37,699 nt of DNA from an uncultured Bacilli bacterium. Lineage in GTDB: Bacteria; Bacillota_I; Bacilli_A; RF39; UBA660. Below the pieces are notes generated by a model. The model saw only the letters and a program-made list of their open reading frames with translations. It searched no databases and was not told where the DNA came from. The DNA is taken from NCBI GenBank assembly GCA_949439935.1, contig CASRZA010000003.1, positions 1 to 37,699 of the forward strand. Direction: 5' to 3'. Positions 17,634-24,941 of the stretch are shown piece by piece. A program made the translations under genes and the position numbers. Within the stretch, counting starts at the first letter, position 1. Each line of letters begins with the position of its first letter.

Positions 17634-19241
17634 ATGGATAATAAAAACAAGAAAACACTATTGGCAATATTAATTTCGATCATAGTAATATCACTAGCCA
17701 TATCGACAGCATATCTGATGACAGACATACTACCTAGTTTAAATGATCCCTTAAATATAGGAGCAAATACAGATAATCTAACTTTAATATATGCAGACTG
17801 TGCAGATGATAATCCATTTCATTGTGAAAACATCAACAAAGATTTATCTCTAGGAGAAAGTGTAGAGAAGACATTTCAAATAAAGAACGAATCTAATAGG
17901 GAACTAAGCTATACTCTTTATTTCAAGCACTTACAAAATACTTTTAAAAACGATGAGTTGGTTTACAAAATAGAAAACATCGACACAGGAGAAGTTCTCA
18001 TAGATACGACACCAGTTCCATATAGAGAAGTTAAAACTGCGAATGTAACGATAAAAAATAGCATAGAGATAGAAGGTAATACTACTCAAAACTATAAAAT
18101 GACAGTAATTTTCTTGAATAAAGGTTACAACCAAAACGAGAATTTAAATGCAAAGTACTCCATAAAACTGTCTATAGTACCAAGCGACACAGTACTATCT
18201 GAATCCATTTCGAATGAACTGATGGCAACACAGTTCAGATATGATTCTGAAGCTGGTGAAAATGTATTTAAAGAGGGTATATGGCAACATAATAAAGAGA
18301 TAAAAAAAATAATCTTTGAAGATACATTAAATCCAAAAGAAAATGCAAGTTATGTATACGACATATCTAGTGTCCAGAATGAAAGTGTAATGGCCTATCT
18401 AGTACCAGATGCAGAAGATAATACAAAATATATCACATATATCCAATCGGATGGAGAAGTTATAGCAAATAGGGATAGTTCAGGTTTATTTTCTGGCTTC
18501 ACGAATTTAGAGAACATAGACAATTTAACAAACTTAAATACAACTAATGTGCTCCTCATGTCTGAAATGTTTTCTGGCTGTAGCTCTTTAAAAACGCTTG
18601 ATTTAAGTCGTCTTGATACAAGCAAAGTTATTGATATGTCTGGGATGTTTGCTGAGTGCAGAAGTTTAACAACGTTGAATCTAGGTAACTTCGACACAAG
18701 CAAATTAATAAACATAGAAAGTATGTTTGCTAATTGTCGAAATTTAATATCATTAAATATAGATAATTTAAATACTAGCAAAGTAACGAATATGAGGAAT
18801 ATTTTTAGTGGCTGTCAAAGCTTGGCAACATTAGACCTAAGTAATTTTAACACAAATAACGTCACTGATATGTCAGGAATGTTTAGTTATTGTAATAGCT
18901 TAATGATATTGAATTTAAAGAACTTTGATACTAGCAAGGTTACAGATATGTCTGGAATGTTTTATGACTGTAGTAGTTTAACAAAATTAAATATAGACAA
19001 CTTCGATACAAGTCAAGTTATAAGTATGAACAATATGTTTGAAGGATGCCGCAATCTAACAACGACGATCACTATAAGAGGAACAAAGTGTACCAATTAT
19101 AGTAAAATGTTTGAAAATGGACCTGGTGTACCTCCTGCAACTATAACTGTAAATTACACGGAAGAAGCCTCTAGCTTAGTAGATAACATGATAGCTACTA
19201 ACACTCAAGGTTATGTAAAAAAAGGTATCAAAGTTTCATAA
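17634..19241 (+). CDS. Membrane-anchored BspA-like/DUF285 repeat surface protein
   Basis: N-terminal TM LLAILISIIVISLAISTAYLM; about seven repeats of the type MFxxCxSLxxLDLSNFDTSKVTDMSG; AAAGGA SD. Confidence 0.85.
   Translation: MDNKNKKTLLAILISIIVISLAISTAYLMTDILPSLNDPLNIGANTDNLTLIYADCADDNPFHCENINKDLSLGESVEKTFQIKNESNRELSYTLYFKHLQNTFKNDELVYKIENIDTGEVLIDTTPVPYREVKTANVTIKNSIEIEGNTTQNYKMTVIFLNKGYNQNENLNAKYSIKLSIVPSDTVLSESISNELMATQFRYDSEAGENVFKEGIWQHNKEIKKIIFEDTLNPKENASYVYDISSVQNESVMAYLVPDAEDNTKYITYIQSDGEVIANRDSSGLFSGFTNLENIDNLTNLNTTNVLLMSEMFSGCSSLKTLDLSRLDTSKVIDMSGMFAECRSLTTLNLGNFDTSKLINIESMFANCRNLISLNIDNLNTSKVTNMRNIFSGCQSLATLDLSNFNTNNVTDMSGMFSYCNSLMILNLKNFDTSKVTDMSGMFYDCSSLTKLNIDNFDTSQVISMNNMFEGCRNLTTTITIRGTKCTNYSKMFENGPGVPPATITVNYTEEASSLVDNMIATNTQGYVKKGIKVS
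18567..19112 (+). repeat. Seven 26-codon (78-nt) DUF285-type coding repeats
   Basis: Repeated MF-x2-C-x-SL-x-TL-(D/N)-L...(D/N)-T-S-K-V-T-(D/N)-M units in frame; Cys at position 5 of each. Confidence 0.8.
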
Positions 19242-19261: not shown

Positions 19262-19313
19262 TATCTTTTTATAAATACTCATTGTAGGATTTAACTAGAA
19301 AGAAGTGATTCCC

Positions 19314-19685
19314 ATGAAAAAGTCGTCTTATGGAATAATAAATTATAAAGAGTTAATGACAGAAGGATTTGAATACATAGATAAGACTAAGTATTTGAGT
19401 AAGTTAGACAATATAAAAAAACTCTAATTTACTTAAGACCTGGAAGATTCGGAAAGAGTCTATTCACGAGCATGATGTTCTACTATTATGATGTCAATAG
19501 CAAAGATGAGTTCGATACATTGTTTAGTGAAACATATGTCGGAAAGAAAAGTCGAGAACGACGTCAAAAAACTAGTCGAAGATAAGAGACTTGAAGGAAT
19601 AGAACAGCTGGATAGATATAGCCTAGATAAGGAAAATTTAAAGAAATACTTGAGAGATGTCGAATTGCTAGAAAGCTTGGATTAA
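19314..19685 (+). pseudogene. Decayed AAA-ATPase-like (PF09820/DUF1703-type) gene: N-terminal third plus C-terminal tail, frameshifted
   Basis: MKKSSYGIINYKELMTEGFEYIDKTKYLSKLDNIKK then, one frame away, TLIYLRPGRFGKSLFTSMMFYYYDVNSKDEFDTLFSETYVGKK, then in a third segment VENDVKKLVEDKRLEGIEQLDRYSLDKENLKKYL. Confidence 0.7.
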
Positions 19686-23475: not shown

Positions 23476-24351
23476 TTGAAAAATATATTAAAAAAATTAT
23501 TGTGTCTAAGTTTTGTACTACTTATGATGACCAGTTGTTTTAAAAGAGATGACTTGGAAGGCGTAGATATATTCACGACAGTCTATCCAGTCCAATTCGT
23601 CACAGACTATTTGTATGGATATAATTCTAATGTAAAGTCGATCTATCCAGCTGAAACTGATCTCGGATCATATAAATTGACAGATAAACAGATTGAAGAA
23701 TATTCGAAAGGATCCATATTTGTCTATAATGGACTTTCAGAAGAAAAAGGTATTGCTCGCGACTTGTTAAATAAAAATAAAAATTTAAAAATTATCGACG
23801 TGAGCCAAGGCTTAGATTACAATAGTTCTATCGAAGAACTATGGCTCAACCCGAGCGACTTTCTCATGCTAGCGCACAACATTAAAAACGGATTCGAAGA
23901 ATACATCAATAACAAATATATCATCGAAGAGATAAATAAAAATTACGAGAGTTTAAAGGTTTTGATAAGTTCTTATGATGCTGAATTCCAAATGGTTCCA
24001 GAGAATGCTAAAAATACGACTATTTTGATCGCGAGTGACGCCTTGAGTTTTCTATCAAAATATGGCTTTGATGTGATCAACATAGATGAGTCTCTTGGAG
24101 AAGTGACAAGTACTACAAAAAATAAAGCTAAAAAAGCTATCAAAGATGGGCATGTAAAATATGTTTACATGCTAGACAATCAAGTTGAGACAGAACTCAT
24201 TAAATCTTTCATACAAGAGGGTGCTCAAAAAAATGTCATAAAAAGTATGACTATATTGTCTGAAGATGATGTCAAAAATGGACACAATTATAAAACGATG
24301 ATGCGTGACAACATCGAAGAAATAAAGAGAGAAGTGTACGAAACGAACTAG
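23476..24351 (+). CDS. Lipoprotein related to metal ABC transporter substrate-binding proteins (ZnuA/AdcA-like), TTG start
   Basis: Lipobox LLMMTSC; FTTVYPVQFVTDYLYG; SIFVYNGLSEEKGIARDLL; DVSQGLDYN; SLGEVTS. Confidence 0.7.
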   Translation: MKNILKKLLCLSFVLLMMTSCFKRDDLEGVDIFTTVYPVQFVTDYLYGYNSNVKSIYPAETDLGSYKLTDKQIEEYSKGSIFVYNGLSEEKGIARDLLNKNKNLKIIDVSQGLDYNSSIEELWLNPSDFLMLAHNIKNGFEEYINNKYIIEEINKNYESLKVLISSYDAEFQMVPENAKNTTILIASDALSFLSKYGFDVINIDESLGEVTSTTKNKAKKAIKDGHVKYVYMLDNQVETELIKSFIQEGAQKNVIKSMTILSEDDVKNGHNYKTMMRDNIEEIKREVYETN

Positions 24352-24407
24352 ATTAATAAACAAAAATAATCGCTGTAAACGATGTGCAGATATAGAAAGT
24401 GGGGCCT

Positions 24408-24565
24408 TTTTGCACGAAGAAATCTAATAAAAAAATATTTTTGGCGGTTCTGGTATCAATCATAGTAATATCACTAGCTATATCGACGGCATATTTGATG
24501 ACAGACGTGACACCTAGTTTAAACGATCCTAAGGTTATGTTAAAAAAGGTTTCAAAGTTTCATAG
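24408..24565 (+). pseudogene. Collapsed copy of the 17634-type surface gene: conserved N-terminal membrane anchor joined directly to the conserved 3' end
   Basis: Hand count: 63/71 nt match at the anchor (ATCATAGTAATATCACTAGC...GATCC) and 32/34 nt at 24531-24564 versus 19207-19240 (AAGGTTATGT.AAAAAAGGT.TCAAAGTTTCATA). Confidence 0.8.
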
Positions 24566-24590
24566 AACACTTAGGTTGAGAGAAATATGA

Positions 24591-24941
24591 TCATAATATA
24601 TCGGGTTCGTCGTATCCGATCCACTCTAAATACAAGAGGATTCCACCTCCAACTAGAAACAGAGTCGTCGCAACTACAGTCATGTAGTTTTTTTTATCTC
24701 TGCTTTTAGAAAATTTATTCGATGCGTTTACGAAAAAATAGATGTATACTAAAAAACTTATAGTTAAAAGAATAATGTTTAAATTGTGAAATTCTCTATA
24801 CTTTTTTTGGTCGTGAGTATAGACATAATCTTTTTCTATTTGATTAGATATGATGGCAAAAATGGCGACAAATATATAAGTCGCCCATATGATATCTTCG
24901 CGACCGATTTCGCTCAACTGTTCACTTAAAGGACCTGTCAT
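24591..24941 (-). CDS. Uncharacterised small membrane protein
   Basis: Three hydrophobic segments in 116 aa; coherent ORF without a competing frame. Confidence 0.55.
   Translation of the reverse strand: MTGPLSEQLSEIGREDIIWATYIFVAIFAIISNQIEKDYVYTHDQKKYREFHNLNIILLTISFLVYIYFFVNASNKFSKSRDKKNYMTVVATTLFLVGGGILLYLEWIGYDEPDIL

Follow-up and report, generated by a model that had tools for sequence, protein, structure and literature searches.

Remnant of a surface-protein gene that keeps its two ends but lacks the middle: a probable pseudogene in an uncultured Bacilli bacterium

In the genome of an uncultured Bacilli bacterium, a 239-nt gap between two convergent genes holds what looks like the beginning and the end of a surface-protein gene with its middle missing. 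Is this the scar of a deletion, or do members of a surface-gene family exchange central cassettes by way of conserved 5′ and 3′ arms, as an earlier sequence-only reading had put the choice? The window, that is, the whole 37,699-nt stretch of DNA that was analysed, is contig C3, one of 109 in a fragmented genome of 1.43 Mb (G000; 91% complete), and comparisons between species used one genome per species. The features needed to follow the argument are listed here; we refer to the locus as the relic and to the intact paralogue as 17634, after its first position.

17634–19241, + strand: intact paralogue 17634, an N-terminal anchor module followed by DUF285 (BspA-like leucine-rich) repeats (PF03382, E 2e-55)
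23476–24351, + strand: ZnuA-like metal-binding lipoprotein, left neighbour (PF01297, E 1e-31)
24352–24590, + strand: the whole relic, which fills the gap between the stop codons of its two neighbours
24390–24413, + strand: leader remnant, ribosome-binding region ATATAGAAAGTGGGGCCTTTTTGC, aligned to other leader copies
24414–24416, + strand: original start codon, changed to ACG (the 11 other leader sites have ATG or GTG)
24417–24530, + strand: 5′ coding remnant, membrane anchor ending in NKKIFLAVLVSIIVISLAISTAYLMTDVTPSLNDP
24530–24531, + strand: deletion junction, at which the frame shifts (~1.45 kb missing relative to 17634)
24531–24564, + strand: 3′ coding remnant, out-of-frame terminal codons with stop from a gene of the 17634 type
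24591–24941, − strand: small membrane protein, right neighbour, convergent (orthologues 38–44% identical in G002, G003, G006 and G008)

The sequence-only reading had matched the anchor stretch to 17634-family DNA at 63/71 nt and a 34-nt stretch to the last codons of that gene at 32/34 nt, with an out-of-frame join at 24530/24531; both counts were reproduced exactly and the join was borne out. In full alignment, the 5′ piece (24456–24529) matches 17676–17749 at 65/74 nt (E 1e-21), and the 3′ piece (24531–24564) matches 19207–19240 (E 1e-9). The best ungapped matches in 60 randomised windows, in which dinucleotide content was kept on average, reached 39/74 and 23/34, which rules out chance for both ends. 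The 5′ coding remnant is also 72% identical over 105 nt to a second paralogue (contig C24, 1407–1511). A search of the genome with 24380–24600 found both ends joined at one place only, the relic itself, and brought out a third homologous piece that the earlier reading had missed: 24390–24434 matches the leader and start region of a different set of genes. Only the last 24 nt of that leader are kept, the promoter and tandem repeats being gone. A short mobile (MITE-like) element, considered as a candidate for the locus, was ruled out by the single joined copy, and neither terminal repeats nor a target duplication could be clearly made out.

The gap between the ZnuA-like and small membrane-protein genes is empty in four species of the same genus: in G002 and G006 it does not exceed about 20 nt, and in G003 and G008 it runs to a few tens of nucleotides (up to about 50). 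The simplest account of 24352–24590 is therefore that of an insertion in this lineage; the small membrane-protein gene is absent from G004. In G006, one gap away from the position of the relic, a complete surface gene from a different subfamily lies between the small membrane-protein gene and that for pyruvate:ferredoxin oxidoreductase (L105, 2900–4687), which indicates that surface genes do settle singly in the intergenic gaps of this region.

The intact paralogue is a clear member of the DUF285 (PF03382) BspA-like surface proteins of Mycoplasma and related bacteria, exceeding the Pfam cut-off at 186 bits; the relic itself is not a member, its ORF giving no DUF285 match in Pfam, since the whole DUF285 region has been lost. 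Over the 35 codons shared from 24426, relic and paralogue differ by 14.5 silent changes in 27 sites and 7.5 replacement changes in 78 sites, a dN/dS of ~0.11 (binomial P 0.0002 against neutrality; the stretch is short and the ratio rough). This ratio suggests that for most of its separate existence the copy was functional, and that its collapse is comparatively recent; the codon comparison thus indicates that the gene ancestral to the relic was once under purifying selection.

Taken together, these sequence comparisons make it very probable that the relic is a pseudogene of a leader-driven 17634-type surface gene whose middle has been lost. To either side of the join, across which the middle is missing, the sequence is homologous to an intact gene; the frame is broken, and the signals for expression are gone (an ACG in place of the start codon, no leader repeats and no promoter). 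The leader piece marks the ancestor of the relic as a gene that had been under regulation. Bacterial pseudogenes with internal deletions are alike in their kept ends, lost middle, broken frame, lost regulatory elements and absence of the site in relatives, and differ from the relic in nothing essential. Under this explanation, a 17634-type surface gene bearing the shared leader would have come to lie between the ZnuA-like and small membrane-protein genes in this lineage; for most of its history the gene would have been functional. Its promoter and leader repeats would then have been lost and its start codon changed to ACG, and an out-of-frame deletion would have removed nearly the whole coding sequence, so that about 40 codons survive from the start and about 11 from the end. 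Direct observation covers the homology of the three pieces, the missing start and shifted frame, the site empty in four species and the bias towards silent changes; we infer both the order of the losses and their origin in illegitimate (short-homology) deletion subsequent to insertion. The assembly, 91% complete, contains no intact 17634-type gene with the shared leader, and a fusion of leader and anchor before the collapse is therefore possible. Upstream of the C24 paralogue lies a sequence that resembles the leader (TATAGAAAGTAGG), possibly by chance.

Most likely the relic now does nothing. An open frame does span the anchor (24399–24590, 63 aa, GTG start), and the past purifying selection on the anchor could be read as a sign that a short membrane peptide is still made. 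However, this frame would start within the old ribosome-binding region and has no ribosome site of its own, its tail is out-of-frame sequence, and there is no promoter-like site on the + strand between 24250 and 24650, all of which leaves a surviving peptide very improbable.

The second half of the choice with which we began is that the relic is the empty state of a cassette-exchange (antigenic variation) system. Silent-cassette systems of antigenic variation include Borrelia vlsE and Mycoplasma vlhA, and the likeness to them lies in a surface-gene family with shared N-terminal modules: the N-terminal family is large in this genome and genus, its members carry different C-terminal domains, and the relic keeps both ends. 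Exchange through conserved arms calls for such arms at both ends of the cassette across the family, and the arms were not found. With up to three mismatches, the 3′ stretch occurs at three places in its own genome (17634, the relic and contig C93, where no surface gene lies ahead of it) and nowhere in eight congeners, and other family members, in this and related genomes, end differently, with unrelated C-termini; a conserved 3′ arm as a family feature is thereby ruled out. Nor is the 5′ end specially preserved: when 17634 is set against C24, the nearest intact paralogue, conservation in the anchor does not exceed that of the next ~250 residues, and identity runs evenly at 63–76% of nucleotides over the whole N-terminal domain. 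The rarity of the 3′ stretch, the differing C-termini and the evenly conserved anchor mean that there is no pair of conserved arms. A variable central cassette was looked for at the site of the relic, where the gap is empty in the four other species; the relic holds no cassette, start codon or promoter, and the site bears no sign of exchange. We therefore regard the cassette-exchange explanation as very improbable. Of the two possibilities raised by the sequence-only reading, it is the deletion scar that stands, given that both ends come from a single type of gene, that they are joined out of frame, that start and promoter are lost and that the site is empty in relatives; the scar is one of ordinary gene decay, and no cassette-exchange system is needed.

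That the joined ends are an artefact of assembling or binning a repeat-rich metagenome genome is highly unlikely as well: the assembly is fragmented and many of its contigs end in leader repeats, but the relic lies deep within a contig of 37.7 kb, gene order is conserved to its left and right, and no other copy has the same sequence, which excludes a chimera put together from known copies.

The tail of 17634 resembles a normal end of a DUF285 protein (LVDNMIATNTQGYVKKG, compared with LVDKMVATSTNGKVVHG in G010). Both at 17634 and on C93 (L014, 3218–3354), a terminator and an AAA-ATPase-like gene follow on from the 3′ stretch (82% identity over 137 nt), and on contig C29 (L187, 1–122) the end of the 3′ stretch and the same AAA-ATPase-like gene lie beside an unrelated gene. 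A 17634-type tail standing without its gene before the AAA-ATPase-like gene looks as if both genes had once moved as a unit or, alternatively, as if the AAA-ATPase-like gene carried the tail along with it. This second gene has itself collapsed within the window:

19313–19685, + strand: AAA-ATPase-like (PF09820) start joined to a PDDEXK_9-type end, middle missing

The copy on C82 (L013, reverse strand, 562–1042) has likewise kept its ends and lost its middle, with a different extent of deletion; internal loss with both ends kept is thus not limited to surface genes.

The value of the relic is that of a signpost, its first 24 nt having led to the leader, which deserves a look of its own. The leader forms the 5′ ends of about a dozen surface-protein genes and has a promoter (TTGACA/TAGAAT) followed by AAGGTCCGGATAAA(A)CAC (17/18 bp) in one to four tandem copies, then ATATAGAAAGTAGGGCCTTTTNNC and the start codon. 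Its pattern has 12 matches in the genome and none in a reversed control, the contigs bearing it including C6 (L012), C10 (L095), C15 (L015), C18 (L010), C28 (L011), C43 (L016), C62 (L096), C66 (L097), C67 (L098) and C82 (L013). Genes of at least three N-terminal types stand behind it, and its presence before a 17634-type anchor accordingly fits a portable control element. Elsewhere, the pattern was not found in eight congeners, nor the tandem repeat in the other 144 family-level genomes searched, nor the exact pattern in 84,980 species genomes and IMG/VR (near-identical records may fall outside this last search). Neither the searched leader-bearing loci nor the part of the window surrounding the relic gave an Rfam match, and a known RNA family was therefore rejected for the leader.

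Complete arrays ahead of genes that are intact, or open to the limit of the contig, have four repeats in all seven cases; where a complete array holds only one repeat, as in two cases, the gene behind it is truncated, and C19 has one repeat plus a leaderless fragment. The repeat units are alike within a locus, being of AAACAC, AAAACAC or AAAGCAC type, a pattern suggestive of arrays that gain and lose units. In predicted folds the repeats pair two by two, and an odd repeat pairs its AAGGUCC with the GGRCCUU at the ribosome site; the probability that GGRCC is unpaired is predicted at ~0.0 for odd and 0.5–0.66 for even repeat numbers. None of 300 sets of shuffled repeats reached the observed difference between odd and even, a weak control in that shuffling also destroys the palindrome. 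On these folds, and purely as a prediction, an odd copy number would hide the ribosome site and an even one would free it, an unusual kind of phase switch if true; binding of a protein to the palindrome TCCGGA in the DNA is a live alternative. It is conceivable, though on present modelling rather unlikely, that the relic dropped out of a species-specific, phase-variable surface regulon in which repeat parity switches translation and loci with at most one repeat (the relic has none) would be silenced and free to decay.

Several contigs (C7, C10, C28, C56, C66 and C77) end inside leader repeats, and the linkage of promoter to gene is putative there; C66 and C77, both of the AAAGCAC type, may be two halves of one locus. 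The window itself begins within a surface gene (5–1045) of the 'WWRIIRFNGDGSIRMQYDG' family, to which many leader-driven genes belong.
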